From a bacterium (lineage in GTDB: Archaea; Nanoarchaeota; Nanoarchaeia; Woesearchaeales; UBA10216): 64,000 nt of DNA. The position numbers and the translations under genes were made by a program. The stretch spans positions 1-64,000 of the forward strand of contig JAAGZO010000966.1 in NCBI GenBank assembly GCA_024206195.1, read 5' to 3'. Every line of letters starts with the position of its first letter. The first letter of the stretch is position 1. The notes below the pieces were generated by a model. The model ran no database searches and was not told the origin of the DNA. It saw only the letters and a list, made by a program, of their open reading frames with translations. Shown here in pieces: positions 4,698 through 62,921 of this stretch.

Positions 4698-5345
4698 ATG
4701 TATAAGATTGAGGATTTAGTCAGAGAGATTTTGGAGGCTCACAAAAAAGTAGATGAGCCCTTGGCCAGGTATTTACCAAAGTTTATCACTGAAGAAGATT
4801 TGAGAAATGAACAGGATCAAGTATGTTTATGGATGTTAGACGATATAAGCCGGATGTGGATGTCCGCTATTAAAGAGGCGGACCCCGAGATGTACGGATA
4901 TATTCCGTCGGATAGTGCGTTTGTTTATAATGTCTTATCTACAGTAGTTAAGCACAGAACCGGTGGTAAAAGATTTATAGATGCTGGTTGTGGAATCGGA
5001 ATAGTTAATCTTATGGCGAGTTACCTTGGATATGTTTCCCATGGTCTTGAGTTGGATGATAGAACATTTAACCTTGCTCAGACACTTTTCGGGGAGAAGT
5101 GTACCTTTATCAAAGGCAGTGTTGTAGAATATGATTATGGGGATTATGATGTTATATATTCCTACAGACCGTACAGAAATAAAAGAAAGCAAGACGAGTT
5201 TGTTGGGGTAGTTGAGGGTTCTATGAGAGTAGGATCTTTGTTTATAAACGTGGATGCTGCAATAGAGTTAGCGGTAGAAAATATTAATGGAGTGATTGTT
5301 CGGCAGTCACTTGGTTCTTACATAAAAAATTTGTTGTCTGGATAA
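4698..5345 (+). CDS. SAM-dependent methyltransferase-fold protein
   Basis: 215 residues. Motif I of class I methyltransferases is clear at about residues 93-101 (FIDAGCGIG), followed by a strand ending in an acidic loop (GLELDD) that would bind the ribose of S-adenosylmethionine. The catalytic-loop position reads YSYRPYRN instead of D/N-PP-Y, so the usual amino-methyltransferase motif is not intact and the substrate cannot be named. The N-terminal 80 residues are helical. It precedes the small primase-like gene by 27 nt. Confidence 0.7.
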   Translation: MYKIEDLVREILEAHKKVDEPLARYLPKFITEEDLRNEQDQVCLWMLDDISRMWMSAIKEADPEMYGYIPSDSAFVYNVLSTVVKHRTGGKRFIDAGCGIGIVNLMASYLGYVSHGLELDDRTFNLAQTLFGEKCTFIKGSVVEYDYGDYDVIYSYRPYRNKRKQDEFVGVVEGSMRVGSLFINVDAAIELAVENINGVIVRQSLGSYIKNLLSG

Positions 5346-5372: not shown

Positions 5373-5963
5373 ATGGGTTTTTCTACTATAATTGCTAAAA
5401 TGTTTGTGAAAGTAACAAACTTAATACTACTGCCTTCTAATGTATACATAGAGATCGTAAAGCCAAATTACATCACGGGAAAGACGCGGAGTTTTTTGAC
5501 TATTCAACAAAAACCAACAGAGTATCGGTACGTATGGGTAGATATTGATACTCACGATCAGTATGTTATAGATAGGGTATGTGAACTATTAGCAAAGTTT
5601 AAAATAGATGAGAATTATATGTGCGAAAAGCAGGATGGGGAAAAAATGGAAGACTGGGCCTGTAATACTAGGCGCGGTGTTCACATAGCTACAAGGAGAA
5701 GATACCGCAACGATGCTGTTACTATGTTATCCAAAAAACTTGCAGAAGCGGGGGCATGCCCGGATTTTATGTCTTTTATGGGCGGATATAGTAGCCCAAT
5801 AAATGAGGATGGTACATTTCATCCTGGATTTAGAATAACTCCGTCGAGAGAAACAATGGATATGGAAAAAACTACAAAATGGAGAATTTCTGATCCATTT
5901 TACATTCATTTGATGAATATAGGTATGGCCATATCTAAACTAGTAACACCAAAGCAAAAATAG
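5373..5963 (+). CDS. Small protein with DxD...GxH pattern (primase-like?)
   Basis: 196 residues after a strong AAAGGAGAGG. VWVDIDTHD (about residues 54-62), TRRGVHIATRR (about 96-106) and FRITPSRE later follow the D-x-D, G-x-H, R order of archaeo-eukaryotic primase-superfamily active sites. Two other proteins in the window (7104 and 41352) share the acidic strand and a GYHVV motif. The length is short for a primase, and this is an inference from motifs only. Confidence 0.5.
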   Translation: MGFSTIIAKMFVKVTNLILLPSNVYIEIVKPNYITGKTRSFLTIQQKPTEYRYVWVDIDTHDQYVIDRVCELLAKFKIDENYMCEKQDGEKMEDWACNTRRGVHIATRRRYRNDAVTMLSKKLAEAGACPDFMSFMGGYSSPINEDGTFHPGFRITPSRETMDMEKTTKWRISDPFYIHLMNIGMAISKLVTPKQK

Positions 5964-6016
5964 ATTTGGCGATTAGTTTCGCTCTGCGAGAAGAGGGGAG
6001 GTGTAAAAAAATCCTG

Positions 6017-6929
6017 ACTCGGAAAGGTGGGCCGAGTATAAAAAAGCCACAAAACCTATAAACAAAATCTATCTGTAATTCGCAGCGGATAGGCTCCGCT
6101 GAAGATAGTTTCGTGCCACTACTTTTTAGTGCTACGCGGAGCGAATCTGTCTACGTGACGAGGGCGCAAATGTAGGCAGGACTGCTTGTATACCCAACAA
6201 GCGGTTTGCGCCAGGGTCCGTCACCTAAAGGCTGTGTTCGAGAATTCTTGTGTATCAAGGAGGATTGATCCCGATGGCGGGGCTTTTAGCATACGGTCAA
6301 GCACATACCTCGATGTAGTGTAGAAAGTTTAGAACTGCTTTAAATAGCGAAGGCGTCAGATTACGCCTGTTTGTAGATGCCTGAAAAGGCGGGCCATTCA
6401 AAGGTTTATCTGGAGGGTGGTGGTTCAGTTGACTGTCGTTGCACCACAAAGACCTGTGCAGCGCGGCGTTACGGAGCGAATCTTTCTAGCTACGGGAGAA
6501 GGCCGAATGCGCCAAAGCTCATTGTTGGTTGGTACCCGACACGTAGGCTGTTTATACAGTTTACGCCCCGTAAGGATGGGTTGATATCAAGTGCATACCG
6601 AAGGAGTACTTTGAAAGGTAGTCCTATAGGTAGTGAGAGCGTTTCGTCAGAAACTAGCGTCTGCCCAGAGCAGAGCGCTAGGAAAATCCTATGTCCGGCA
6701 GATCCCCCAGGTCTCTATAGTACCACAGAGTTTATACTTTGTAGTGTTGTAGAGTGTGCGATTTGTTGGCGTAGGTGTCGCCGCCTGTCTTGTTTAGTAG
6801 ACGGGCAACTTTGGTGGAATTCGCCACCAGCTCTTGGCAGCAACAGAGTATCGGTCACTCTTTTGTTGTCTTGTTCTTGTCGCCACCCTAACCGTGTATA
6901 CGGCAGTGGCGTCGAAGGCCGAAGAAAGG
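6017..6929 (+). ncRNA. Candidate large structured non-coding RNA
   Basis: Between genes ending at 5963 and starting at 6938 there is no convincing coding frame, base composition is richer in G+C than the flanks, and perfect hairpins are packed one after another. Examples: 6017-6037; a multi-branch unit closed by ATTCGC 6078-6083 with GCGAAT 6141-6146 enclosing 6084-6100 and 6117-6131; a nested three-part stem 6155-6224; 6254-6269; 6270-6281; 6351-6368; a GCCT-GAAA-AGGC tetraloop hairpin 6379-6390; 6417-6447; 6561-6573; 6654-6681 (11 bp, one bulge); 6783-6806 (8 bp); 6812-6829. The size and density recall the large ornate phage RNAs such as GOLLD and ROOL, but I cannot assign a family. Ends are approximate. 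Confidence 0.7.
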
Positions 6930-6937
6930 AGGTGTTT

Positions 6938-6970
6938 ATGCACAACATGTGGAAGGGGGATAGGATATGA
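6938..6970 (+). CDS. 10-residue leader peptide frame
   Basis: ATG at 6938 follows AAAGGAGGTG, the best SD in the region, but the frame ends after 10 codons (MHNMWKGDRI) with TGA overlapping the next ATG. It may serve translational coupling at the 3' end of the structured RNA. Confidence 0.45.
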   Translation: MHNMWKGDRI

Positions 6971-7104
6971 TCCTATTCTCTGGAAACATTGTTAGTGTGT
7001 ACACACTGGCACGTCTCAACATTACCCCGCGTTGGGAGCAAGTGCTGGAGTCTTGTGGCGGGGTTGCTCTACTTACTAACAATTTCACAGAAGAGGAAAT
7101 TTGA
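6967..7104 (+). CDS. 45-residue hypothetical protein
   Basis: ATG overlaps the preceding TGA (ATGA), and its own TGA overlaps the next ATG at 7104, so it sits in a coupled chain. The sequence ends NNFTEEEI. Too short to assign a function. Confidence 0.5.
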   Translation: MILFSGNIVSVYTLARLNITPRWEQVLESCGGVALLTNNFTEEEI

Positions 7105-7820
7105 TGAAAACAAGTACAGTCAAAGGACAACACAGATCTTTAGAAGATCTCACTGCTGCTAACATACAAGCTATGCTTTTTGATAGCGTAGCACACCAGC
7201 ATCAGCAGGATGGTGAGGTAACGGAGTTGAAGAAGGAAAACAAATTACTCAGAACTGCACTTAGCGCGGTAATGGGTATATTTTCCTTAATGGAGAATAT
7301 GAACTCTAATCCGAAACTTCAGGTATCGCTTAGGCAGTCTAGATATCTGAAGGACGAGGAGACTGGATATGAATGGTCCAGATTCTGGGTAATGAGCTTT
7401 CTTGGAGAACACGTTCCAGTCTGCATCGATGTAGATCAAGTAGACGGAGGGGTTTTGGAAAAGGCCCTGGCAATGGTATCTGAATACGGTCCTGTAGTAT
7501 ATAAAACTACAAAAGGATACCATGTTGTCACCTCTTCTCTTTTGGAGAGGGAAGCGGCAAAAGAAGTGTACCACGCCCTTAATGAAGCGGGCGTGATCGA
7601 TGAAAAGTATTATTGTTGTGCCGTCGGTACGCGGTACGGCAACTGGTCGGTAGTACAAGACGTGTCGGCCAGATTTGGAAAGAAGTACAAAGTTGCTGAC
7701 AAAGTCCGGTTGTCAGCAAAGTCAGACAGTGATCCGGACCATATTAAATTAATGGATCTCCTGGTAGATGTGTTTTCGGTTATCCGAAAGTGCGGACCGT
7801 CGGGAGAGGGAGAGGTATAG
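7104..7820 (+). CDS. Hypothetical protein with IDVD / GYHVV motifs
   Basis: 238 residues from the ATG that overlaps the previous stop. After an N-terminal helical region, VCIDVDQVD (about residues 106-114) is followed by KTTKGYHVVTSS and later DKVRLSAKSDSDP. This order of acidic strand, GYH and basic strand parallels the proteins at 5373 and 41352. It may be a distant archaeo-eukaryotic-primase-like fold, unproven. The next gene follows 4 nt later. Confidence 0.6.
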   Translation: MKTSTVKGQHRSLEDLTAANIQAMLFDSVAHQHQQDGEVTELKKENKLLRTALSAVMGIFSLMENMNSNPKLQVSLRQSRYLKDEETGYEWSRFWVMSFLGEHVPVCIDVDQVDGGVLEKALAMVSEYGPVVYKTTKGYHVVTSSLLEREAAKEVYHALNEAGVIDEKYYCCAVGTRYGNWSVVQDVSARFGKKYKVADKVRLSAKSDSDPDHIKLMDLLVDVFSVIRKCGPSGEGEV

Positions 7821-7824
7821 AGTT

Positions 7825-8193
7825 ATGAAAACTACAAATAACGTTTTTATTCATACCCACAAGCCGATAAAGCATATGTGGGGAATTGCGTACCGTGTGC
7901 GCGCAGTACATAAGTTCCGCAGACCATCTACGCCAGGAATGGAAAGGTCCAGGCGCCGGCGGGAAGCGTCTGTGGAATTGGAATACGCCGTAGGCGATCG
8001 GCGCTCGGGGACGCAACCAAAGTTAAGAAGAGATCGCCGCCGCGGTAGTAGCAGTAAGAAAAGAGTTCTCTTGGGGAGCTGGTATGTAGAAAAACTGCTC
8101 CTTGAAAGAGACATGTTAGAAACAGGTATGACGCTGATGGACTTGGCGGAGTACCTGTCAGGGGAAGAACTCTGGGAAATCTATTCTATGTAG
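7825..8193 (+). CDS. Arginine-rich hypothetical protein
   Basis: 122 residues from ATG 7825 (a longer in-frame extension overlaps the previous gene). The middle is extremely basic (RSRRRREAS, RRDRRRGSSSKKR) and suits nucleic-acid binding; the last 35 residues form an acidic helix (MTLMDLAEYLSGEELWEIY). No family recognised. Confidence 0.6.
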   Translation: MKTTNNVFIHTHKPIKHMWGIAYRVRAVHKFRRPSTPGMERSRRRREASVELEYAVGDRRSGTQPKLRRDRRRGSSSKKRVLLGSWYVEKLLLERDMLETGMTLMDLAEYLSGEELWEIYSM

Positions 8194-8204
8194 ACTTTCT
8201 AGTA

Positions 8205-8243
8205 AGCGTGTACATCTAACGGCCCGGTGTACACGCTTTTTTT
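8205..8243 (+). terminator. Intrinsic terminator
   Basis: AGCGTGTACA pairs perfectly with TGTACACGCT (10 bp), followed by seven T. Ends the 7104-8193 operon. Confidence 0.85.
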
Positions 8244-8263
8244 ATTTATAGGGTTATTTTAAT

Positions 8264-8728
8264 ATGAAGCAGAAGCAGAATCAGATAGATCTTCACGTCA
8301 TGTTTCTGTCTATGATAGACATGTTCAGGGTTAAAAACAACCCCTACATAGACAGGTGTGTCAGATCTGGAGATCTGAATTTCACATTCGCCCGCTTACA
8401 GGGGCGATGCAGCGCAGAGGGGGATATTATACTTCTGAGGAGTAAAGATTCATATGATCCTCTCGCAACAGCCGAAAATATGCTCGTTGGCGTCTTAAAG
8501 CATTACCACCGTTTGAACGGTAAAAAGTCACCCTCTGAGGTGACTATAAGGAGACATGCGAAAAAGATGTCACATGGGTTGGTCCTGGTTTACGCCAGGC
8601 ACATGGTAGTTGCTGATTTAGTTATTGCTAAGCAGCAGCTAACACAAGCCAAAGCATCAGTTGCGGATGCCGAGGCGAATATTGAAACGGTTAACGAGGA
8701 CGCCGTACGGAAGTTTCTCGGAATTTAA
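8264..8728 (+). CDS. Hypothetical helical protein
   Basis: 154 residues; the start lacks an SD and lies 26 nt after the terminator arm. The C-terminal 40 residues are Ala/Glu-rich helix (QQLTQAKASVADAEANIE) likely to form a coiled coil. Unrecognised. Confidence 0.7.
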   Translation: MKQKQNQIDLHVMFLSMIDMFRVKNNPYIDRCVRSGDLNFTFARLQGRCSAEGDIILLRSKDSYDPLATAENMLVGVLKHYHRLNGKKSPSEVTIRRHAKKMSHGLVLVYARHMVVADLVIAKQQLTQAKASVADAEANIETVNEDAVRKFLGI

Positions 8729-8742
8729 TTAACTCAAACTAA

Positions 8743-8793
8743 AAACCCTGCTGTATGCTACTGTTGTATTGATGGTAGTATATAGTAGGGTTT
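8743..8793 (+). promoter_or_regulatory. 19-bp hairpin with G-U pairs abutting a start codon
   Basis: AAACCCTGCTGTATGCTAC pairs with the arm ending GTAGGGTTT at 8793; three pairs are G-U. No T-tract follows. ATG 8805 comes 11 nt after the stem and has no SD. Confidence 0.65.
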
Positions 8794-8804
8794 ACTTACA
8801 TATT

Positions 8805-10004
8805 ATGGCTAAAAATGACAGCCAAAAAGGAAAATCCAGAACAAAAACTGGTAACAACGATAAAAACGGTGGTTCTAAGAGCCACACGAAAAAATCGGCC
8901 ATAGAGGTCGAATTGCATGATATAGCAATCCCATCTGGGAATTGCCGTGTATCCGACGGGGATATCCCCGGTTTAGTAGCGTACCTAGGCCAGGACAAGG
9001 CCGTGGGATCTGATGTTGTCCTGGAGCTGGCGTCAGCTGGAAATTCCGTGCGGACTGCTGGGGATGCTCGGAAGAGGTTTGATGAGCTGCGCGCGGAGAA
9101 GGGGCAGGTAATAAAGAAGGCCCCAAAGAAAGCGACGGAACCAAAGACTTTTATAAAGTCCTTCGTCGTAAACAACGGTGTTATCACCGTTGATGGTGAT
9201 GTAGGTTCGAAAAAGTGGCACATAGTGCCAGCAACGCAGGAGTTGCTTCGGACAGCAGGAGATGGCCAGTACATTTTCAATTGCATCGTTGTCGGCGGCA
9301 AGTTGGATCTTGCCACTGATGATGAAAAACGCCAGCTGAAGTACGCTGGTATTCAGGTAAATGAAACAGCTGTAGCTACTATCAGCACAGCAAAAGCCGA
9401 GGTTGTTCTCGGTACTAAAAGAATGGAAAAGCTCGTAGCGTCAAATGAAGACGCGCGAGTCGCCCCGTTTGTGAAAGAGTTCGCGGTAAAGTTCGCGGAT
9501 GCCGCTGAGTTGGCTATGGAAAAAGTCAACGATCTGCTTGCAAAGGCAGACGTAGAAATCAATAGACTGGCTGATTCGGATGCTGCTGCCAAGCGCGACT
9601 TGCTCAAATCCGAGGTAGAGAAAGCTGCCGGGATTCTCGAAGCCGCAGGTAGTGGAGCTCCGGTTCGGACGGAGGAAGCCAGACTCGAAAGAGTTCGTAT
9701 TTATTACGACGAACTGTCAGCAAAGGAAGCGGCATTGCGAACCGCTTTCGAGGGTGACTTAGATTTAGCGAAGGATTTCTTAAAGGAAATCGCCCTCAAA
9801 AAGGCTAATGAACTGGCCAACTGGAAGTCGGTGGTTGTAGCCGTCGGCGAGGAAATAAACGCTAAAAAAGTCCAGGTAGCAGAACTGGACAAAGAGGTTT
9901 CTTATGTGGAGTTTGTCTCCACAGTCGTGAAAGTCGAAGTTGACTCGTTTAACGAGGAATTCGATAAATTTACCGGTCTCTGCGAAATGTTAGAGATCGT
10001 TTAA
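8805..10004 (+). CDS. Long helical Lys/Ala/Glu-rich protein
   Basis: 399 residues from ATG 8805. Residues about 1-30 are Lys/Ser/Asn-rich; about 200-399 are mostly Ala/Glu/Lys helix. Codon use is visibly richer in G+C than in the rest of the window, as in the next gene, which suggests strong expression or a different origin. No SD; the gene follows a hairpin. It may be a structural or scaffold-like protein, but nothing shows this directly. Confidence 0.75.
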   Translation: MAKNDSQKGKSRTKTGNNDKNGGSKSHTKKSAIEVELHDIAIPSGNCRVSDGDIPGLVAYLGQDKAVGSDVVLELASAGNSVRTAGDARKRFDELRAEKGQVIKKAPKKATEPKTFIKSFVVNNGVITVDGDVGSKKWHIVPATQELLRTAGDGQYIFNCIVVGGKLDLATDDEKRQLKYAGIQVNETAVATISTAKAEVVLGTKRMEKLVASNEDARVAPFVKEFAVKFADAAELAMEKVNDLLAKADVEINRLADSDAAAKRDLLKSEVEKAAGILEAAGSGAPVRTEEARLERVRIYYDELSAKEAALRTAFEGDLDLAKDFLKEIALKKANELANWKSVVVAVGEEINAKKVQVAELDKEVSYVEFVSTVVKVEVDSFNEEFDKFTGLCEMLEIV

Positions 10005-10016
10005 CTAACCTTAACG

Positions 10017-10068
10017 GAGTTGCTGCTGTAGTATGCAGATGTAGTCATCCGTGCTGCAGCAGTAGCTC
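10017..10068 (+). promoter_or_regulatory. 19-bp hairpin with five G-U pairs abutting a start codon
   Basis: The arms 10017-10035 and 10050-10068 pair without a gap around a 14-nt loop. ATG 10081 follows after 12 nt without an SD. Confidence 0.65.
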
Positions 10069-10080
10069 TTTAATACCATT

Positions 10081-11517
10081 ATGCAAAACAGAATGAACTT
10101 GTCGTCGAGAGAGTGGGGAAGATTAGAAGTTATGGACTTCCTCGCACAAAACGATCAGGCGTATGTATTAACGCCTGGTCAAATTGATAGGGCAATAGTT
10201 GCCAAAAATATAGCTGAGGTTATCTTAGCTGTAGGTGATAAGGCTATTGCAGAGAGTCTTTTCTACTTTAGTGGAAATGATTCGAAAGGCGGGTCTAAGC
10301 CTGCCAATAGCCGGAATCGGAGGACACAGAAGGAGACTACACCTTCAGCTGGTGCAGGGACAGTGGCAACTTCCCCGAGGAAGAAGGCTGTTAGAGCCCT
10401 CAACGGTAAGAAGATGACCCTTGAGTTCGTTAAGAATGACGGGGAGGGGCAAAGCCACGTTGTCTGTGTGGTTAAGCTCCCCACGAAGCACGATTATCTG
10501 GTGTACCCCGACAACAGGTACAACGTGGAAATGGCGGAACCCGGTACGTACACCGGATGGGTGGAGAATACCCAAAATAAGAAAATAGGGTGGTTCCACC
10601 TGAAAGAGGAAACACTGGCGAAGCCGCGCAAAGCTGAGTCGAAAGCCGACCAGAATCGGCAGAGACAGGACCGGAAGCGCGAAAGTGCAACCTCAGCCGT
10701 GCTGACAAGAAATGTCGCCAAGAAGCTGGGCGGTACAGGAACGCGTTCCCAGAAGCCTGTACGGGGCGTCGTAAAGCCTATAACAAAGGCGCCGGCGAAG
10801 AAATTATCGGAAAAAGATATGTCTTTCCTGTTAGAAGTAACTGGAAAGATTTCTGAAACCGAAATTTATGAAAATAAGTTAGTAGAGGAAATTACTCAAA
10901 ACGGGAGTGATTCTCTCTACGACGAATTAGCAACGGAAATTCTCGATATGAGAACAGTGCTGCTGGGCGAGAATCGATTTCGTTCGGTACTGAAGGGCTG
11001 TGTGGAGTATTCCACTAATCTTGTGGAGAGAATCCGCCGAGCAGATTATTCCGGTAACGCCGGAAAGCTCTTTGAGAAATCGGTGGCGCTGCACGCCCAA
11101 CTTAGAGAGAATTTGAAATCTGTTAGAGATGCAAACGGATTGAAAAAGGCTACTCTGTTACAGGAGTTAGGAAACTGTGACAAAGAAGTTAAAAAGGATG
11201 AAATCCGGCAGCGGTTAGGAATGCCGTCTCTGACAAGATCCGTTGGGGGAAGGAGCATTGTCGGAGCTGAAAACTACCGAACCGCACTGGAAGAAGCTTT
11301 GGAAGCACTTCCGAATAATGTGGAAGATAGTCTCCGGAAGTTGTCTTTAAAGGCAATTGAGGCGATTGGTAAGATCGAACTCCAAGCAACCCGATTCCAA
11401 GAGGAAGGGGAAAAGCTCGAGAGAGAGCTCGTAGCTTACAAAAGAGTTTTCAGTGTGGTGTACCCACATTTGGAAACTACAGATGAGTTGGTAGCGCCGC
11501 TATCAGCTTTGATATAG
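10081..11517 (+). CDS. Hypothetical protein, paralogue of the 13460 gene
   Basis: 478 residues. N-terminal block with LTPGQIDRAIVAKNI and ESLFYFSG matches LTPKQIDDVVNSVNI and NELFYYSKG of the protein at 13460; a second shared block reads LEFVKNDGEGQSH versus LTFVKNTGGGESP. The middle (residues 190-260) is basic and low-complexity; the C-terminal half is coiled-coil helix. The N-terminal block could be a helix-hairpin-helix-like domain. Function unknown. Confidence 0.75.
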   Translation: MQNRMNLSSREWGRLEVMDFLAQNDQAYVLTPGQIDRAIVAKNIAEVILAVGDKAIAESLFYFSGNDSKGGSKPANSRNRRTQKETTPSAGAGTVATSPRKKAVRALNGKKMTLEFVKNDGEGQSHVVCVVKLPTKHDYLVYPDNRYNVEMAEPGTYTGWVENTQNKKIGWFHLKEETLAKPRKAESKADQNRQRQDRKRESATSAVLTRNVAKKLGGTGTRSQKPVRGVVKPITKAPAKKLSEKDMSFLLEVTGKISETEIYENKLVEEITQNGSDSLYDELATEILDMRTVLLGENRFRSVLKGCVEYSTNLVERIRRADYSGNAGKLFEKSVALHAQLRENLKSVRDANGLKKATLLQELGNCDKEVKKDEIRQRLGMPSLTRSVGGRSIVGAENYRTALEEALEALPNNVEDSLRKLSLKAIEAIGKIELQATRFQEEGEKLERELVAYKRVFSVVYPHLETTDELVAPLSALI

Positions 11518-11531
11518 TAAACAAGACAGGA

Positions 11532-11559
11532 GGACCTAGGTATGTCCTTAAACTGCCTA
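11532..11559 (+). promoter_or_regulatory. H-type pseudoknot, copy 1
   Basis: Stem 1 GGAC (11532-11535) with GTCC (11544-11547); stem 2 TAGG (11537-11540) with CCTA (11556-11559); the loop crossing stem 2 is TTAAACTG. Two related copies at 12433 and 13332 keep this loop while changing the paired bases. It heads a hairpin-rich leader running to 11774. Confidence 0.65.
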
Positions 11560-11579
11560 TTTGATGTAGGAGGTAGTTT

Positions 11580-11624
11580 ATGATACTAAACGCAAGTTTT
11601 AGTGATATGGCAGCTTATTGCTGA
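11580..11624 (+). CDS. 14-codon leader peptide frame
   Basis: ATG follows AGGAGGT by 5 nt and the frame codes MILNASFSDMAAYC before TGA. It lies 20 nt after pseudoknot copy 1. Possibly a regulatory upstream frame; too short to be sure. Confidence 0.35.
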   Translation: MILNASFSDMAAYC

Positions 11625-11701
11625 GAGTAGATCACTACATACGGCGGCTCCTTTAGTATTGTAAGCTACTAACAAAAGAAACTTCTATGTAGTAAAGGTA
11701 A

Positions 11702-11774
11702 TATAAAGTGCAAATGTTATGCTGTGTGTTGTACTTTATTGAATAACTATAATAGCTTTCATCTGCACTTTATA
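11702..11774 (+). promoter_or_regulatory. Long-loop hairpin before the 11783 gene
   Basis: TATAAAGTGCA at 11702-11712 pairs perfectly with TGCACTTTATA at 11764-11774. The next ATG (11783) follows after 8 nt with no SD. Confidence 0.6.
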
Positions 11775-11782
11775 TAAAAATA

Positions 11783-12427
11783 ATGATAATAAAAACTATA
11801 CAACCGTCGGTTGCATGTAGGGGTGGGTATACCTGTGACCCTAAAAAGTCTGGTATTCTCGAGGAGAACAGCGAGCAGATTTGCATTGCTTATCAATGGT
11901 TGTCTGCAAAGATGATAAGTAAAATTGGCGTAGGTAGTGAGTCTAAATACCCACTGTTTGGGTGGTTTAGGTATGGCGGGACTACGTCTATTAGGAGACA
12001 ATTGAGTACTATGCGGTATACCTGGACCAGGTCCCACATAAAGGAATTAAAAGAAAGGGGCATTGGTAGTAGGAGTAGACATGCCCTTCTTACTATAAGG
12101 AAAAAAGAAGAGGAAGTCTTGTTGGTAGACAGTATAGGCTGGTTTTATGTTTATACTAATCAGTACCTTCCCATTGATGAATCTGATGCGTTAGAACACG
12201 CAAGTAAATTTGGGGATGGTACGACATTTTCGGAGGAATATGTTGAGGCATACAGAAATCCCAACTACAGGGAAGAAATAGTCAAAAGTTGGGATAGGTG
12301 TCTCGATCTGACTCTCCAGAGTGATTACTTTTCTGAAAGCGGTCTCAGGAAAAGTATTCAGGCTGCATTCTGGGGAATAGAAAGGCGGGATATAATATCC
12401 TGCGAAGTATTGCCGTTGAGTCGGTAA
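11783..12427 (+). CDS. Hypothetical protein
   Basis: 214 residues. Basic in the middle (RSHIKELKERGIGSRSRH), aromatic-rich elsewhere. No domain recognised. It stands alone between two structured leaders. Confidence 0.6.
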   Translation: MIIKTIQPSVACRGGYTCDPKKSGILEENSEQICIAYQWLSAKMISKIGVGSESKYPLFGWFRYGGTTSIRRQLSTMRYTWTRSHIKELKERGIGSRSRHALLTIRKKEEEVLLVDSIGWFYVYTNQYLPIDESDALEHASKFGDGTTFSEEYVEAYRNPNYREEIVKSWDRCLDLTLQSDYFSESGLRKSIQAAFWGIERRDIISCEVLPLSR

Positions 12428-12432
12428 TTCTT

Positions 12433-12460
12433 GGCCCCGGGTACGGCCTTAAACTGCCTG
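12433..12460 (+). promoter_or_regulatory. H-type pseudoknot, copy 2
   Basis: Stem 1 GGCC with GGCC (12433-12436, 12445-12448); stem 2 CGGG (12438-12441) with CCTG (12457-12460); conserved loop TTAAACTG at 12449-12456. Relative to copy 1 the paired bases change together, which supports a real RNA structure. Confidence 0.65.
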
Positions 12461-12790
12461 ATTTTAATATCATGTAATATGGAGGTGTTGTTTGTGTTAT
12501 ATATAAGAGCTCCACCGTTTGGGCCCGGCCTGCTGCGTGCCGTTCTTTAGGAAGATATGTCTTCTATTAAGTATGCGAAGTTGCGCAAAACGCATGACAA
12601 GTAGTGTACTTAGGATGGGATCTAGGAAAAGCAGGGTAGTACCTTGAAATAGGTACTGTTGTATTTACCTAAAAAACCCTTACTGATCTAGTGTAAGGTT
12701 ACGCAACCTGTGCGTATAAATACAGGAGGTACTTTTTAGCAACTTACAATAAGTTCCTATCAAACTACTTTGTAGAAAGCTAAGGATGTT
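12461..12790 (+). ncRNA. Hairpin-rich non-coding stretch after pseudoknot 2
   Basis: No good gene. Perfect hairpins include AGTACCT 12638-12644 with AGGTACT 12651-12657, CCTTAC 12678-12683 with GTAAGG 12693-12698, GGTT-acgc-AACC just after, and AACTTA 12741-12746 with TAAGTT 12750-12755. Two tiny frames are present: an 18-codon GTG frame after GGAGG near 12495 and a 15-codon ATG frame near 12557. Either a long leader or a small structured RNA. Confidence 0.45.
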
Positions 12791-12863
12791 TGTTCGTACA
12801 CAACGAACCCCCCCCCAGTTTGCCCTCTCTGGTAAACCAAAAGAGGTAAATGAAAAAGGAGAT

Positions 12864-12892
12864 GAGGTAGTCGTGATTTACACGACTACCTC
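12864..12892 (+). promoter_or_regulatory. Perfect 12-bp hairpin before the 12901 gene
   Basis: GAGGTAGTCGTG pairs with CACGACTACCTC around a 5-nt loop; ATG 12901 follows after 8 nt of A/T sequence without an SD. Confidence 0.7.
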
Positions 12893-12900
12893 TTTATTAT

Positions 12901-13167
12901 ATGATCAACCAGAAAAAAGCAGCGAGGCCTACCGGATATGCAGTAGCGTACTGCAGGCTTCACGAAATATTGGATGGTTACTCCACTTTCCATGAGAGGA
13001 AAGCTGCTAGAAAAGAGTTCTTTTTTAAGTGGATTTACGGGTGGAAATTAGAGAATTGTAGTTGTTGCAGTGGTTCTGGCCGTTATGCTGCTACTGAGTG
13101 TAGTTGGTGTAACGGTACAGGCAAAGAGTGGCACAAGCCGCAGGAACAAGGAGAAAATAATGTGTAA
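12901..13167 (+). CDS. Small protein with DnaJ-type CxxCxGxG zinc motifs
   Basis: 88 residues. CSCCSGSG and CSWCNGTG near residues 52-76 form a pair of CxxCxGxG motifs as in the central zinc domain of DnaJ, which uses four such motifs; here only two remain, enough for one zinc. No J-domain is present. Its likely role is binding an unfolded or partner protein, by family analogy only. Confidence 0.6.
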   Translation: MINQKKAARPTGYAVAYCRLHEILDGYSTFHERKAARKEFFFKWIYGWKLENCSCCSGSGRYAATECSWCNGTGKEWHKPQEQGENNV

Positions 13168-13331
13168 TAAGAAAGTTCAAACGGTTCCGGTATGTGCGTG
13201 AAATTTCGCAGTACACTATGACTCACAAAACAGTCCTTAGAACGCGTTGAATTTTTCAACTAATACTTAGGTATAGGTTGGGAAAGTAAAGCAGTCTTTG
13301 GGCTATTTTTTTGAGTGAAGTACTGCCACTT

Positions 13332-13359
13332 AGCCCTGGATACGGCCTAAAACTGTCCG
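13332..13359 (+). promoter_or_regulatory. H-type pseudoknot, copy 3
   Basis: Stem 1 GCC (13333-13335) with GGC (13344-13346); stem 2 TGGA (13337-13340) with TCCG (13356-13359); loop TAAAACTG. A third compensated version of the element at 11532 and 12433. Confidence 0.6.
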
Positions 13360-13374
13360 TGTTTCATTAACAGT

Positions 13375-13425
13375 GTGTAGTGTTCGTATGGTGGAATACT
13401 CTATTGATATGGATACTACACTTTT
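13375..13425 (+). terminator. 15-bp hairpin with T-run
   Basis: The arm from 13375 (GTGTAGT...TAT) pairs with ATATGGATACTACAC (13407-13421) with G-U pairs, followed by TTTT. It lies 35 nt before the ATG at 13460, so it may be an attenuator. Confidence 0.55.
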
Positions 13426-13459
13426 CATCTATACCATATAGGTATAAGAGGCATATAGA

Positions 13460-14782
13460 ATGAATAAGTTGGACTTAAACATTCGACCCGATAGTCTGCA
13501 AGTTGGAGACTTTTTAAGGTCTATCGGCAGGGATCACGTACTGACCCCAAAACAAATTGATGATGTCGTTAACTCCGTGAATATTTCTGGAGTTATTTCC
13601 AGTGTTGGCGGTAACGTTGCTCTGGTCAATGAGTTGTTTTACTACAGTAAGGGGGAAATCAGTAGTAAGGGAGTTGCTACTAATAGAAGTAGTAAAGCTC
13701 CAACGAATGTAAAGGCTATATCGAGACGCAAAGCTGTAGAGGAGCTTAACAATACTCGACGTACCCTTACATTTGTTAAAAATACCGGAGGCGGCGAAAG
13801 TCCTGTTTATCACAGGATGGAAGTTTCTTCGGGGCATACAGTTACTGTGTATCCCCACAAGCAGTATTGCGATAGGATGATGTCCCCTGGTGAGTACAGT
13901 GGGACAATAGTTGTTTACGGCAGTAAGAAAGTAGTTTTCTTTATTCCAGGCGGAGTTTCCTCGAGTAGACAGAAGATTGATCTGTGGGCTGCTACTCAAG
14001 ATGTTGGCCAATCTCGAAAGAAATCTACACAAGTTGCTGTAGAACCTACCGCTCTGGTTTTTAACCAGTCTGATGTTGATAATCTCAAGGGATACCTTGA
14101 TGAATTAGATGCCAGCTCAAAACAGGAATCTGCTTTACTAGAAGGGATAGTAAAGTACGGAGATGTGGATGAACTATACCAGGAGCTTGTGGAAGAAGTC
14201 CTGGAAAGTAGGGCATCCCTGCTTGATAAAGATGACTTGAAGTCATCTTTAAGTAGCGTAGTGAAGTTCTTTTTGCATAGTCAGAAGGAAGTAAAGAGCT
14301 CGGCTCTTCTACGAAATTCGGAAGCATCTCGGAAAAAAGCCAATTCCTTGAAAACTAGTATGGGGCTGCGTTTAGCCGAGCTGGAAGCGGAGAACGCGGA
14401 TTATGTAGATTCTCTTTATTTAATATTGGAAAAGATTCCAAGAGAGGTACAAAAAGACGAGAAGAGAGAGGCCGTAGGTATGCCTCTGTTTTCTTGCAGC
14501 ATAAATGACCAGCTGGTGGTTGGTGCTGCCAAGATTGGAGAGGTCATTAGCAACTTCTTGGAAGAGGAAGCTCCTCAGATACATGAGGAACAGGTTTCTT
14601 CTGTTCGTAAAAGTTATGAGGCCCAAATTGCGCTGGAAGAGGCCCAGGCAGCTCGATTCGAAAGTGAGTGGGACGAGCTGGAACAGCCTTATAGAAAGTG
14701 CGAAGATATATTGCGTAGGGTGGTTCCTTACGTTAAGGATAATTCTTGTGTAGCAGGCGCATTAACTATACTCGAATTATAA
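13460..14782 (+). CDS. Hypothetical protein, paralogue of the 10081 gene
   Basis: 440 residues. Same order as its paralogue: N-terminal LTPKQID helix block, RRKAVEELNNTRRTLTFVKN block, then a long Glu/Lys coiled-coil C-terminus. It opens MNKLDLNIRPD, similar to MKKLDLNCISEG of the 17435 protein, which suggests a three-member family. It lacks the basic low-complexity insert of the 10081 protein. Confidence 0.75.
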   Translation: MNKLDLNIRPDSLQVGDFLRSIGRDHVLTPKQIDDVVNSVNISGVISSVGGNVALVNELFYYSKGEISSKGVATNRSSKAPTNVKAISRRKAVEELNNTRRTLTFVKNTGGGESPVYHRMEVSSGHTVTVYPHKQYCDRMMSPGEYSGTIVVYGSKKVVFFIPGGVSSSRQKIDLWAATQDVGQSRKKSTQVAVEPTALVFNQSDVDNLKGYLDELDASSKQESALLEGIVKYGDVDELYQELVEEVLESRASLLDKDDLKSSLSSVVKFFLHSQKEVKSSALLRNSEASRKKANSLKTSMGLRLAELEAENADYVDSLYLILEKIPREVQKDEKREAVGMPLFSCSINDQLVVGAAKIGEVISNFLEEEAPQIHEEQVSSVRKSYEAQIALEEAQAARFESEWDELEQPYRKCEDILRRVVPYVKDNSCVAGALTILEL

Positions 14783-14789
14783 TAATTAT

Positions 14790-14821
14790 AGGGGAGGTGG
14801 TTATTACTATCTCCCCTTTTT
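14790..14821 (+). terminator. Intrinsic terminator
   Basis: AGGGGAGGTGGT (14790-14801) pairs with ACTATCTCCCCT (14806-14817), 12 bp including G-U, followed by T-run. The next gene's SD (GGAGG) lies directly after it. Confidence 0.75.
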
Positions 14822-14831
14822 GGAGGAAAAT

Positions 14832-15632
14832 ATGAGTACACAAATAGTTTGTGAACAGGTTGAAAGGCTGCTATTATCAGCTGTAGTACAAGAATATAAA
14901 CTCGATAGCCTATTTATCAGGTATTCCTGGGATCAGGTGTCGAGCGATTACCACGGTACGTTCTCTGCCGCTGGTAGTAGATACGACGAGGATTCTTGTA
15001 TTAGAGTCCAAATGGTAGGTAGATACAAAACCCATATTGGGGATACAGTAGGAACTGTGTATGTTAGGGGATCTAATAACGGAATAAACGTTAAGGGATC
15101 TTCGGAGACTCTATTTAAGAAGTTTACTGAGTGCCTACTCAGTGGGGGAGAGCCTAGGGTATACTACGCGAAGAAGGGGGTCTTCTCCTTGAATGGGAAA
15201 ACCGAAGTTGACTTTTCCCAGAAGTGCGAATTGGCGGAGTTTACAGAAATTATGCCCTTTGACTTTTACGTCAAGGGCGAGTGGAGGAATTACGAGAGGC
15301 AGGATACTTGGTATAAAAGGGGGATACCAAGTCCTGCTAAACTTGATTGCGGGAATTTATCACTTGGGGCTACGCCTGAGTTTATGGATGAGCTCCTCAG
15401 CGATATGCGGGTTATTGGTAGTAATCCCGCTGTTTTTGAAGGTCTTAATGCTAAAGGGAGTCAGTTTTTCTGGCTACTTGGTTGTAGGAAAGCAGACAAG
15501 GATTTGTGGGAACCAATTATTAAGAAGTACCGCGAAGTTACAGGGTTAGGTTTCACTCCGAAAAGGAGCCTACCCAGTAATATAGAATCAAGATTGGCCG
15601 TGGCTGACGGCAAAGTGCACTATCTCAGCTAA
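14832..15632 (+). CDS. Hypothetical protein
   Basis: 266 residues from ATG 14832, which has GGAGG 6 nt upstream; the in-frame TTG at 14820 precedes that SD. Beta-rich, with many Gly and aromatic residues. No recognised motif. Confidence 0.65.
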   Translation: MSTQIVCEQVERLLLSAVVQEYKLDSLFIRYSWDQVSSDYHGTFSAAGSRYDEDSCIRVQMVGRYKTHIGDTVGTVYVRGSNNGINVKGSSETLFKKFTECLLSGGEPRVYYAKKGVFSLNGKTEVDFSQKCELAEFTEIMPFDFYVKGEWRNYERQDTWYKRGIPSPAKLDCGNLSLGATPEFMDELLSDMRVIGSNPAVFEGLNAKGSQFFWLLGCRKADKDLWEPIIKKYREVTGLGFTPKRSLPSNIESRLAVADGKVHYLS

Positions 15633-15666
15633 AAAAGGGCTTCATTGATTAATGGAGCTAAGAAAG

Positions 15667-15694
15667 CAGCTTAAGGTCATTAGGCTGTTTTTAT
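15667..15694 (+). terminator. Intrinsic terminator
   Basis: CAGCTTAA pairs with TTAGGCTG (8 bp, one G-U), followed by TTTTTATT. Confidence 0.65.
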
Positions 15695-15751
15695 TGACTA
15701 TTGTGAGCTTGGTTAGTATACTACTACCCAGGCTCACGGAGGTAGTTTTAT

Positions 15752-16339
15752 ATGATAAACAGACTCAAAACAATGTTTTTTGTAATACCGCTGTTTGTTA
15801 TGGCTGTTTGTTCGAAGCCGGCAAGTACTTATTCGTTTGTTAGTGTAGAGGAGTATAAAAAAAGCGAAGTAAGTTACGAACTGTCTTCAGACGACTTTAA
15901 AAGAGCGGCAAAAAGATATGGGATTGGGAAATACCCTCATATCTTAGAAGCATTGTATTTTGTTGAAAGTAGTAATGGAAAACTTCTCGGGAAATATCGC
16001 ATAGGCGATGTTTTGGGTGAAAATTCCACCCAGAGGAAGTATTTCAATAAGATAAGAAATACTTGGGCACCGCACCTTAATCTGGATACGCGGTGCTCGT
16101 CCAGCGGGGCTATGGGTGTTATGCAGATAATGCCAGCTACATTCTTTGTCTATGCTCAAGATGGAGATGGGGACGGCATAAAAGACCCAATGAACCCACT
16201 GGACAGTTTAGCTACTGCAGCTTATTACTGCAGTAGGAGTTTTTACAGAAAGGGTAAGAGTGTAAAGGGCATGTTGATGGCTTACAACCGTGACAGGGCA
16301 TATGTAGCCAAAGTATTGCGCTTTGCTAAAAAGATATAA
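15752..16339 (+). CDS. Lytic transglycosylase (SLT type) with signal peptide
   Basis: 195 residues. An N-terminal hydrophobic segment (residues about 4-20) reads as a signal peptide; the protein would act on peptidoglycan outside the membrane or at release. The SLT signature is present: catalytic Glu in ALYFVESSNG (about residue 72), SSSGAMGVMQIMPATF (about 115-130) and AYNRD near the C-terminus. The family cleaves between MurNAc and GlcNAc leaving a 1,6-anhydro end. A calcium-loop-like DGDGDGIKD lies at about residues 137-145. It could serve lysis or entry. Confidence 0.85.
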   Translation: MINRLKTMFFVIPLFVMAVCSKPASTYSFVSVEEYKKSEVSYELSSDDFKRAAKRYGIGKYPHILEALYFVESSNGKLLGKYRIGDVLGENSTQRKYFNKIRNTWAPHLNLDTRCSSSGAMGVMQIMPATFFVYAQDGDGDGIKDPMNPLDSLATAAYYCSRSFYRKGKSVKGMLMAYNRDRAYVAKVLRFAKKI

Positions 16340-16357
16340 TCTTACCAATTTCAAGAG

Positions 16358-16394
16358 GGCACAGTCCTACTATATTAGGATTGTGCCTTTTTTT
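16358..16394 (+). terminator. Intrinsic terminator
   Basis: GGCACAGTCCTA pairs with TAGGATTGTGCC (12 bp, one G-U), followed by seven T. Confidence 0.85.
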
Positions 16395-16461
16395 CGGTTG
16401 ACCTACGGACAATTTACTATGAAAACCCCTGTATGTCAACTGTATTATAGGAGAAAAAAAT

Positions 16462-17001
16462 ATGAGACAAAATGAAGTTAAAGTTATAAGGGATTTAGAG
16501 TTCCTTAGTAAACCTTGCATTGAGGTTCCAAAAGATAATAGGTTATGGGGAAAGATAGCTGATGAGTTACACAACGCTATTTCTAACCTACCCAATACAG
16601 CTGGTTTGGCCCATAACCAGATCGGAGGAAATCACAGAGCTTTTGTCATGGCTATTGAAGAAAAGCTTGTTGTTTTTATAAATCCCAGGATTACTAAGAG
16701 GAGCCCGCACTTATATAGCGGGATAGAGTCCTGCAAGTCCATCGACGGTATGTATATCGTCGAGAGACCGAGTTATGTTGTAGTAGAGGCAGATAATTTG
16801 AATGTTCCACTTAAAGCATCTGGGCGGTATTCTGTATGTTTTTGTCACGAGCTCGATCACCTTAATGGTGTGACAATTAAGGATATCGGGAAGAAAACTA
16901 CTACCAACACGCCTAGGAAGCGTACTAGTAGGAAAGTTGGTCGTAACGAATCCTGCTCGTGTGGTAGCGGGCAGAAATTTAAAAAGTGTTGTGGTAGATA
17001 G
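16462..17001 (+). CDS. def: Peptide deformylase fused to a SEC-C zinc knuckle
   Basis: 179 residues. The three deformylase motifs are seen in order: AGLAHNQIG (47-55, for GxGLAAxQ), ESCKS (89-93, metal ligand Cys91) and CHELDHLNG (128-136, His129, catalytic Glu130, His133). It should remove the N-formyl group from nascent proteins. After a basic linker, residues 161-179 (NESCSCGSGQKFKKCCG) are a SEC-C motif, a zinc-binding tail known from SecA that touches ribosomes. The tail could dock this short enzyme near the exit tunnel; that is inference. Glycines of motif I are partly changed (TAGLAHNQ). Confidence 0.88.
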   Translation: MRQNEVKVIRDLEFLSKPCIEVPKDNRLWGKIADELHNAISNLPNTAGLAHNQIGGNHRAFVMAIEEKLVVFINPRITKRSPHLYSGIESCKSIDGMYIVERPSYVVVEADNLNVPLKASGRYSVCFCHELDHLNGVTIKDIGKKTTTNTPRKRTSRKVGRNESCSCGSGQKFKKCCGR

Positions 17002-17048
17002 GATACTTTTAGCGTAGATTTTTCAATAGTTAGTAGCTTTTATCAACG

Positions 17049-17084
17049 GGCGGTATGTAGTTTATACTATGTACCGCCTTTTTT
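17049..17084 (+). terminator. Intrinsic terminator
   Basis: GGCGGTATGTAGT pairs with ACTATGTACCGCC (13 bp with G-U), followed by TTTTTT. Confidence 0.85.
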
Positions 17085-17096
17085 ATAGGGTAATCT

Positions 17097-17432
17097 ATGA
17101 GTTTAATTTATAAAGGTTTTGTCGGCAAAGTTTGGTTTGACAATAAAGACCTGGTTTTGAAAGGAAAGGTTTTGAACGCGTCGATGCCGGTGGAGTTTTT
17201 CTCGAATTCTACTGGGAAAATAGAACCAGCTTTTCAAGCAGCTGTTGACAAGCATATTTCTGCTTGTGACGAATCTGGGAGTGATCCGGAAAAAGCCTTC
17301 TCTGGAAAGTTTGTCCTGCGAATTGATCCAGAACTGCATAGACTGATAACGGGCTATGCAACTTCTGCTGGTAAAAGCTTAAATCAGTGGATTTTGGATG
17401 TTATAGTCCCAGCCGCTGAGTTAGGGAGGTAA
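17097..17432 (+). CDS. HicB-family protein (orphan antitoxin-like)
   Basis: 111 residues. The N-terminal 65 residues follow the partial RNase-H-like HicB fold (YKGFVGKVWFD...), then SGKFVLRIDPELHR and GKSLNQWILDVI (about 68-103) form the ribbon-helix-helix DNA-binding part. HicB normally neutralises the HicA mRNA interferase, but no HicA is visible next to it, so it may be an orphan regulator or an anti-toxin decoy carried by the virus. The next gene starts 2 nt later. Confidence 0.85.
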   Translation: MSLIYKGFVGKVWFDNKDLVLKGKVLNASMPVEFFSNSTGKIEPAFQAAVDKHISACDESGSDPEKAFSGKFVLRIDPELHRLITGYATSAGKSLNQWILDVIVPAAELGR

Positions 17433-17434
17433 TT

Positions 17435-18385
17435 ATGAAGAAACTTGATTTGAATTGTATTAGTGAAGGCGATCTATTTGCAGTTCTTTCGTTGCACAGT
17501 TGGGCTTCGAAAGAAATTCAGCAGCAGATTGCTAACAAGAGGCCCTTCGAAAATTTTGATAGTTTGAAGAGTCTTGTAGGTGGTATTGGTAATCAGCGTA
17601 TATCGCTGTTAAAGTCCATCTTTTATATAACGCGGGGCGGTTCTGCGGAAAAAGATGTACTGGATAACGTGATTATAGTTATGCAGAAAAAGAACTTCTT
17701 CGATCCGAAAACGAAGAGGAGAATCGGTTTCATAGAGTTCAGTATACACGCGGATAACTACGTTTACGTAGGAACTGGCAAGACGCATTGTAGCGGCCTT
17801 AGTCACATTGAGGTAGCTGTTTATCTACTGGACAGGCTACTTGACTCAAAAAAGGTAAATTTTGTCGGTTCAAGTATAATATTTATAGGTGGAATTTCCC
17901 CTACTAAAAACGCCTCTACAGGTGTGGCAAGATTTCTGTATAGGGGTATTGACGTGATGTGTTCACCCTCGAGCGACCCGGAGTATATGGAGAGGCTTGA
18001 AAAAATCAAGCCCAAGAAGTACGTAGCAAGAAAGAAAAAATCAATACAACGTAATGTATCGCCAGATACTATTATTGGTGTTGAGTTTTCCCGGCAACCA
18101 AGCCAGAGGAGATGGGTTGTTAGGGAACAGCTCAAACCCAACGGGGTCATTAATGAGGTTATTATACCTTATTATGACGGTGAGGAACATCACCCAGAAA
18201 ATAGGTGCAACTTTCAAGAAGCTGTGATGTATTACCTTTTAGGAAATTACAAAAAGCATTTGAAAGTCCATACCGTTTTTCAGGTAAAAGGTGATGGTAG
18301 AAATTTCTGGTATCCAAGTAAGGATAACCAGGTTTTCCGAATTTTATTCGGTAACAGTAAGAGTTTCGGAGTTAATGAAAAATGA
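17435..18385 (+). CDS. Hypothetical protein with N-terminal helix-hairpin-helix-like motif
   Basis: 316 residues. Residues about 30-58 (IANKRPFENFDSLKSLVGG, then IGNQRISLLKS) resemble helix-hairpin-helix DNA-binding segments. The start MKKLDLNCISEGD resembles that of the 13460 protein. The rest is basic and unrecognised. It starts right after the HicB-like gene and overlaps the next one by ATGA. Confidence 0.6.
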   Translation: MKKLDLNCISEGDLFAVLSLHSWASKEIQQQIANKRPFENFDSLKSLVGGIGNQRISLLKSIFYITRGGSAEKDVLDNVIIVMQKKNFFDPKTKRRIGFIEFSIHADNYVYVGTGKTHCSGLSHIEVAVYLLDRLLDSKKVNFVGSSIIFIGGISPTKNASTGVARFLYRGIDVMCSPSSDPEYMERLEKIKPKKYVARKKKSIQRNVSPDTIIGVEFSRQPSQRRWVVREQLKPNGVINEVIIPYYDGEEHHPENRCNFQEAVMYYLLGNYKKHLKVHTVFQVKGDGRNFWYPSKDNQVFRILFGNSKSFGVNEK

Positions 18386-30015: not shown

Positions 30016-30377
30016 AAAAATGTGTTGTGACATTTAGCGATTTAGGATATTCTAAATCAAAAGCTGTTATAGTAACTGATGGGAATGCATATAGCACCCC
30101 ACTAAACAGTGTTGAAAATGTAGGATGGTTAGTTTATATGCTTAAACTACCGACTTCTTTTAACGGCCTACTAGTCACTGTAACTTCTGAAGCAGGTTAC
30201 CTTAATTCTGTTAGAATTGTTAAAACCACTTACGATCTTTTAGTCTGTAAAGATCCGGATGGTGGCGTATCTTGCAATATAATTGTCAAGCTAATAGTTG
30301 ATATGTTAAAGGATGCTGGTATTGACTATAATATTAAGGATGTAGGTGTAACAACTACATTATCTTTTGGAGGATAG
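30012..30377 (+). CDS. Hypothetical protein coupled to radical SAM gene
   Basis: 121 residues, overlapping the radical SAM gene by 4 nt, so the two probably work together. Beta-rich; no recognised motif. Confidence 0.65.
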   Translation: MKKCVVTFSDLGYSKSKAVIVTDGNAYSTPLNSVENVGWLVYMLKLPTSFNGLLVTVTSEAGYLNSVRIVKTTYDLLVCKDPDGGVSCNIIVKLIVDMLKDAGIDYNIKDVGVTTTLSFGG

Positions 30378-30378
30378 T

Positions 30379-38269: not shown

Positions 38270-38302
38270 ATCACCCAAGTGTGATAAATACACTTGGGTG
38301 AT
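38270..38302 (+). promoter_or_regulatory. Perfect 13-bp hairpin before rtcB
   Basis: ATCACCCAAGTGT pairs with ACACTTGGGTGAT. A run of nine A precedes it, which is a T-run after the hairpin on the minus strand only. ATG 38315 follows after 12 nt without an SD; the TTG at 38294 lies in the stem and is rejected as start. Confidence 0.7.
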
Positions 38303-38314
38303 AACAAAAATATT

Positions 38315-51688: not shown

Positions 51689-52318
51689 ATGAAAAAAATA
51701 CCAAGTTTATTTAAGAGGAATTACGGAGGAGACCGTTTAGTTATTGCTGAGTATGTGCCGGGAACTGGTTGGGTTGCCGAAGAGGGTACCCCAACAGTTA
51801 AATTTGATGGGACATGTTGCATGGTGAGAAGCCTTGCACTTTTTAGGCGCTACGATCGCAAACTAACAAGAGCGGGAAAGCGTAGGAGTATTCAGAGAGG
51901 CTATGTAGTGAGTATAAGTGATTTTAAAGACGCCCCTTTGGGTTGGGAAAGGGCGGAAAAATACCCAAATATCCATACAGGGCATTGGCCTGGTTGGGTT
52001 GAGGTAGATATATCAAAAGTTCAGGACAAGTACCATATTGAAGGCTTCAAAAACGACCCTAGTATAGCTGATGGTACGTATGAGTTAGTGGGGCCAAAAA
52101 TAGGGGTTAATCCTTATAACCTTGATCACCACGAGCTCTGGAGACACGGATCATGGGTACTTGAAAATGTTCCTACGACTTATGAAGGTCTTAAACGATA
52201 CCTCGAGACTTTTGAGGGTGAAGGTATTGTGTGGCACAGGGACAACGGGGATATGGCAAAGATAAAACGCCGAGATTTTGGATATTCGTGGCCTACAGAA
52301 TGTATAGCTGGAGAATAG
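51689..52318 (+). CDS. RNA ligase, RLIG1/DUF5565-like
   Basis: 209 residues. Motif I TVKFDGTCCM with Lys38 as the adenylation site, WVEVDI (motif IIIa-like), GTYELVGP, EGEGIVWHR (motif IV) and MAKIKRRDFG (motif V). The KxDGTCC core is that of the human C12orf29/RLIG1 family, which seals 5'-phosphate and 3'-OH RNA ends with ATP. It is distinct from the ligase at 30379 and from RtcB, so the window has three RNA-joining enzymes. Confidence 0.85.
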   Translation: MKKIPSLFKRNYGGDRLVIAEYVPGTGWVAEEGTPTVKFDGTCCMVRSLALFRRYDRKLTRAGKRRSIQRGYVVSISDFKDAPLGWERAEKYPNIHTGHWPGWVEVDISKVQDKYHIEGFKNDPSIADGTYELVGPKIGVNPYNLDHHELWRHGSWVLENVPTTYEGLKRYLETFEGEGIVWHRDNGDMAKIKRRDFGYSWPTECIAGE

Positions 52319-62913: not shown

Positions 62914-62921
62914 TACATATT

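Follow-up and report, generated by a model that had tools for sequence, protein, structure and literature searches.

Evidence for a Long Structured Region without a Convincing Gene

The analyzed stretch of DNA contains a region of 974 nt (plus strand, 5964–6937) in which no convincing gene was found, which has a high GC content, folds beyond expectation and forms numerous helices, and behind which a Shine-Dalgarno sequence and the start of an operon follow at once. Since the largest gap, the high GC, the lack of a convincing gene and the excess folding all fit this reading, the region probably works as RNA, either as a stand-alone molecule or as a leader. In particular, we tentatively read it, with somewhat less than even confidence, as a large structured non-coding RNA of roughly 0.9 kb, encoded on the plus strand of a putative giant phage and standing alone; this latter point rests on size, because a leader of such length would be unusual.

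The window, i.e., the whole stretch that was analyzed, comprises 64 kb with a GC content of 41% and is a part of a 300,646-bp contig; 84 of its 85 modelled genes are located on the plus strand. Judging by gene content, the contig is probably a giant phage, as it encodes RNA repair ligases, proteins with PHROG matches and a transglycosylase that matches internal virion proteins of phages; no capsid or terminase genes were identified among the ORFs scanned, which made up a part of the ORFs of the window.

In the codon-score gene model the largest gap spans 5964–7100, and it shrinks to 974 nt, between the gene end at 5963 and the start at 6938, when two short ORFs at 6938–7104 are added to the model. 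ORFs starting in 5964–6970 were removed by hand for the gap tally, the codon-score model being independent of that choice, while the longer row of the tally (1,087 nt, 62914–64000) results from the window edge and an excluded overlapping ORF. With 86–88% of the window coding, the claim of the preliminary description that about 0.95 kb lacks a plausible gene amid dense coding is borne out. Judging by codon signal, GC and minimum free energy (MFE), the candidate RNA itself probably lies within about 6005–6925, both ends being approximate.

The GC content of the gap is 49.3%, versus 37.9% (length-weighted) in the other 36 gaps of at least 50 nt, and exceeds that of 74 of the 75 genes over about 100 aa, a single one of which attains 49%. 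According to the codon-score model, none of the six frames of the gap carries a sustained gene-like codon signal; the maximum score of a single 120-nt window was 0.17, and two of the top three windows contain stops. Long GC-rich intergenic regions are described as a feature used in searching bacteria for structured RNAs (PMC8632094). The gap is such a region and lacks coding potential, with the caveat of a 197-codon open frame (6377–6970), which had been missed earlier and is weighed below. As explanations of the gap, a degenerate duplicate of some gene in the window was rejected (blastx matches besides its own frame had E of 2.6 or worse), and so was an origin with iterons (no repeats and no skew switch). 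Internal duplication was likewise rejected, the 17-nt near-repeat 6137–6153/6472–6488 (16/17 identical) having no further partners in register.

Folding of the Gap and of the Neighboring Genes

The MFE of 6017–6929, computed with pairing restricted to a span of 300 nt, was -332 kcal/mol versus a mean of -282 kcal/mol in 100 dinucleotide shuffles (z -5.2), and the minus strand of the gap was also enriched (z -3.8). Watson-Crick stems of at least 6 bp numbered 12 versus 6.0 expected, a count reached by 4/300 shuffles, and those of at least 7 bp numbered 3 versus 1.5, which is not significant (62/300). With G-U pairs admitted, the plus strand contained 41 stems of at least 7 bp (32.1 expected, 26/300 shuffles), 21 of at least 8 bp (12.5 expected, 10/300) and 11 of at least 9 bp (4.9 expected, 7/300), the ratio of observed to expected stems on this strand varying by class from 1.3 to 2.2; the minus strand had 11 stems of at least 8 bp versus 5.3 expected (5/300). 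As was seen in plus-strand windows of 100 nt, the local signal is concentrated in 6525–6880 and dips again from 6900 on, where the start hairpin lies, and 6000–6525 is mostly shuffle-like, 6050–6149 being the only window there below z -3. Ensemble diversity of the gap was 161 versus 226 in shuffles (6/60 at or below) and lower still, 106–143, in three coding windows. Thus, the gap folds beyond composition-matched shuffles and does not exceed the neighboring coding windows in this respect.

The latter point is evident from 21 equally long control windows (20 shuffles each): in five coding-rich ones, starting at 4, 7, 10, 13 and 16 kb, z was more negative than in the gap (-6.1 to -9.2), and in the remaining 16 it ranged from -0.2 to -3.75. 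When synonymous codons were shuffled (at most the first 900 nt per ORF), all 10 ORFs of at least 150 aa in the tract 7.1–18.4 kb (7101–18385) proved structured, with z_syn of -3.5 to -7.6, versus 9/54 ORFs elsewhere in the window and 10/110 ORFs of other viral loci (one per locus, some loci being near-duplicates), the open frame 6377–6970 being placed in neither group of window ORFs. The upstream genes 4698–5345 and 5373–5963 had z_syn of -1.4 and -1.8, the dinucleotide z of the control window at 4000 being -8.1. By the codon test, the gap lies at the 5' edge of the structured-gene tract, in which synonymous codons are arranged for strong folding of RNA or single-strand DNA. Selection for structure in coding sequences was reported across life (PMC6544989), and some of its features were found stronger in highly expressed genes (PMC7063772). 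The neighboring genes resemble the coding sequences described there in their fold-favoring arrangement of synonymous codons, whereas the gap differs from them in being not coding-like. In the tract genes the effect extends to both strands, so that its cause may lie elsewhere than in RNA, and, with 10/10 downstream ORFs structured, the folding of the gap may be a regional property. Of the earlier interpretation, folding in excess of shuffles is sustained, but the step from hairpin packing to an ornate RNA is not supported by hairpins alone, because the neighboring genes are equally or more structured.

Helices of the Candidate RNA

The helices named in the preliminary description (6155–6224, 6078/6146, 6379–6390 and 6654–6681) are all present in the plus strand. 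In the nested three-part stem (6155–6224), an outer stem GUGACG/CGUCAC (6155–6160/6219–6224) encloses the stem GGCGCAAA/UUUGCGCC (6163–6212) and an 11-bp inner stem (6179–6207); the stability of this element is unexceptional, as 12/200 shuffles of 6147–6228 were equally stable (z -1.6). The sequence CUGUCUAC at 6147–6154 is complementary to GUAGGCAG at 6172–6179 (listed as stem 6146–6180), and this pairing, which appears in one MFE fold, crosses the 6155–6224 stem, so that a pseudoknot or an alternative fold is possible at 6147–6179. The stem AUUCGC/GCGAAU (6078–6083/6141–6146), proposed to close a multi-branch unit, does exist as complementary sequence, but the MFE structure of the isolated segment 6078–6146, matched by 2/200 shuffles, bypasses it. 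A perfect 7-bp hairpin CAGCGGA/UCCGCUG lies at 6083–6101, and a 4-bp stem with a GAAA tetraloop (GCCU-GAAA-AGGC) at 6379–6390.

Nine segments, chosen by the author, were folded against 200 shuffles each, and for five of them (four of the eight gap segments and the start hairpin 6950–6985) no shuffle matched the native stability. The four gap segments bear a 10-bp hairpin with a tetraloop at 6542–6565 (segment 6541–6566, z -5.7), an 11-bp stem with one bulged base at 6654–6681 (6646–6692, z -4.0), a hairpin of 11 + 7 bp with a 1x1 mismatch at 6713–6754 (6703–6766, z -4.2) and a hairpin of 6 + 5 bp with a 1x1 mismatch at 6838–6868 (6838–6872, z -3.2). The 3'-most hairpin (6 + 4 bp, 6881–6911) was equaled by 10/200 shuffles (6880–6915, z -1.8), and segment 6415–6451 was matched by 37/200.

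Comparison with Known RNA Families

No Rfam covariance model gave a match at its gathering score in the 64 kb. At E up to 10, the region 5900–7100 yielded only the MS2 operator (E 1.1) and mir-2804 (E 0.084), the latter with 23.6 bits where its gathering score is 86, and none of GOLLD, ROOL, OLE and HEARO, the families for which such a search had been proposed in the preliminary description; the latter had itself recognized no family, in agreement with this outcome. We take the models of HEARO and of group I and II introns to be present in the Rfam library. Introns of both groups, RNase P, tmRNA, SRP RNA and the like were ruled out by the lack of an Rfam match, and a tRNA cluster by the finding of no tRNA genes in the 64-kb window.

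In PMC12286853, ROOL is described as a phage-borne RNA of 659 nt with multiple hairpins and pseudoknots, many GOLLD RNAs as over 800 nt long and often near tRNA islands, and the solved structures of both as RNA-only assemblies of unknown function; the same paper names the Rfam model of OLE. ROOL is further characterized by assembly into a homo-oligomeric nanocage of RNA. The candidate is similar to GOLLD in size class, phage setting, many helices and non-coding character, but the Rfam model of GOLLD remained unmatched even at E 10 in 5900–7100, and the usual, albeit not obligatory, location at a tRNA island was not observed within the 64 kb of the contig. It shares with ROOL the phage setting, the size of several hundred nucleotides and the multiple hairpins, differing in the lack of an Rfam match and of tRNA in 64 kb and in that its pseudoknot is a possible pairing. 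OLE and HEARO are likewise large structured RNAs, theirs being bacterial, yet they gave no Rfam match either. With no Rfam match and no tRNA in 64 kb, the analogy with GOLLD and ROOL drawn previously therefore retains only the comparable size, and membership in either family is not supported.

Search for Relatives

The candidate RNA had no credible relative among phages and plasmids by blastn, and neither had the proteins 7104–7820, 5373–5963 and 25170–27953 among phages by tblastn. In viral contigs, single-sequence patterns, which reach close relatives only, retrieved none for 7104–7820, 5373–5963 and RtcB, and no relative was confirmed for the paralogous protein pair 10081–11517/13460–14782, the members of which are 30% identical. 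Genome contigs contained no relative of 5373–5963 and gave 0 hits for the RNA pattern. Distant relatives were found for the RNA ligase, RtcB and FGE-like proteins. Alignments of RNA ligase and FGE yielded 80 loci each; four other window ORFs were matched in the ligase loci (in 1 to 6 loci each), and in the loci from the first pattern search onward, those of FGE included, no window ORF beyond the 18 FGE paralogues was matched. Whole records were searched for 53 (29 + 24) of those behind 178 loci: with the E cutoff set at 10, 19/29 gave a match of some kind (best 0.009 over 32 query bases), and with the cutoff set at 0.1, 2/24 did so (best 0.007 over 21 bases), all of which are taken as chance. 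RNA-derived patterns gave 6 and 9 hits, also read as chance, since similarity ended near the pattern. Apparently, as far as these sequence searches reach, the contig represents a lineage without detected sequenced relatives of the gap or its two flanking proteins.

Several other genes of the contig are worth mentioning. Blastp clustering revealed 18 mutually similar FGE-sulfatase (SUMF1-like) ORFs at 18800–62913, PF03781 being shown in one member. Three RNA ligases (RNA_ligase, RtcB and RLIG1) are encoded at 30367–31407, 38294–39727 and 51689–52318 in the 64 kb devoid of tRNA genes, and a macro-domain protein (PF01661) at 44448–45452. The 927-aa orphan protein 25170–27953 bears a DFDGD motif and is weakly similar to the PF05183-bearing P0003 (25% over 37%, E 1.3e-6); PF05183 is, we presume, a family of RNA-dependent RNA polymerases, and the protein presumably resembles single-chain phage RNA polymerases.

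The Probable Operon Start at 6938

As previously noted, a strong Shine-Dalgarno sequence and a 10-codon frame directly follow the candidate: AGGAGG (6927–6932) precedes by 5 nt the AUG of the ORF 6938–6970, at which the next translated unit probably starts. The UGA of this ORF overlaps the AUG of a 45-aa ORF (6967–7104), whose UGA in turn shares one base with the AUG of a 238-aa orphan protein (UGAUG; 7104–7820), represented by its own copy only among about 5.8 billion proteins searched. A 12-bp hairpin (6955–6981; segment 6950–6985, z -2.8) overlaps the stop of the 10-codon frame and presents in its 3-nt loop exactly the AUG 6967–6969. Upstream of the gap, a 196-aa protein (5373–5963) is encoded, which had no Pfam or PHROG match and no relatives in viral contigs, phages or genome contigs. 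The two flanking proteins bear a weak resemblance to each other (22% over 91 aa; E 0.002 in a single comparison) and contain motifs which we take to be reminiscent of archaeo-eukaryotic primases.

Readings of the Gap

A stand-alone RNA would be read within a long plus-strand transcript, from which it could be released by processing or partial termination; it would be built of many local hairpins with at least one possible pseudoknot, and, if stable, might act in trans as an independent folded RNA, by analogy with the large phage RNAs ROOL and GOLLD. Against it stand the failure of the above searches to retrieve any credible relative, the enrichment of the minus strand, the shuffle-like 6000–6525, the absence of a plus-strand promoter-like site for the gap and the internal position of the only plus-strand terminator-like sites (6767–6788). 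The same 930 nt or so could instead serve the operon that begins at 6938 as a structured 5' leader of great length, which would act in cis, the folded RNA protecting or regulating the message; ribosomes would start at the Shine-Dalgarno sequence, read the 10-codon frame and open the 12-bp hairpin holding the next AUG, and this opening would make translation of the ORFs of 45 and 238 aa coupled. Operon signals adjoining the gap, no plus-strand terminator-like site from 6789 to 6938, the stop-start overlaps at 6967–6970 and 7102–7106, AUG 6967 being exactly the hairpin loop, and the position at the 5' edge of the structured tract all agree with a leader. It is nonetheless somewhat unlikely, as its length greatly exceeds that of ordinary regulatory leaders, the promoter-like site is missing for it as well (though phage promoters may differ), and the upstream genes are co-oriented, so that the gap could be internal to a longer transcript.

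The open frame 6377–6970 also counts against a stand-alone RNA. Its open length is attained by 2/1000 shuffles, with a codon score of 0.027 it surpasses the 95th percentile of wrong frames (-0.014), and its z_syn of -5.9 conforms to the tract, where structured mRNAs are the rule; were it a real, fast-evolving orphan protein gene with a structured mRNA, the gap would be reduced to about 0.4 kb. Yet it is probably not a gene, and we consider the latter reading very unlikely. No Shine-Dalgarno sequence precedes 6377 and the stop of the frame is that of the 10-codon frame 6938–6970; neither Pfam nor PHROG matched it, and in the database of about 5.8 billion proteins, which does contain the 7104–7820 and 25170–27953 proteins of the window, 0/48 candidates scored and even its own copy was absent. 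No other of the 54 training ORFs has so low a codon score, despite inclusion of the frame in the training set; its GC2 of 0.56 compares with a maximum of 0.48 among the other 64 ORFs of at least 150 aa, and it has the highest Cys + Trp, the lowest Asp + Glu and the lowest first-position purine share, its period-3 power being not among the lowest. A region with no present RNA function, be it a DNA site (origin or packaging site) or an eroded gene, in which folding reflects a regional inverted-repeat bias, would explain why the minus strand folds beyond shuffles in MFE and stems and why the tract genes show the effect on both strands, as a DNA-level bias predicts. We nevertheless regard it as unlikely: there is no GC-skew switch near the gap within 1–24 kb, tandem repeats are absent from the gap, and its direct repeats form no family of consistent spacing; blastx against window ORFs gave nothing at E below 1 except the frame itself, and erosion would be expected to bring the GC content closer to the 41% of the genome.

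Returning to the stand-alone RNA, a bolder proposal is that it exemplifies a new, phage-borne class of giant ornate RNAs with no kinship to GOLLD or ROOL, comes from an orphan giant-phage lineage and heads a 12-kb operon of near wall-to-wall folded messages. This is a speculative proposal and an unlikely one; if true, the transcript from 6.0 to 18.4 kb would be one continuous structured RNA system. The tract raises a separate question, namely, for what reason ten successive larger genes of a DNA phage should carry built-in nucleic-acid structure. The known large phage RNAs are few, and a further class would help to tell whether such RNAs are a general phage tool.
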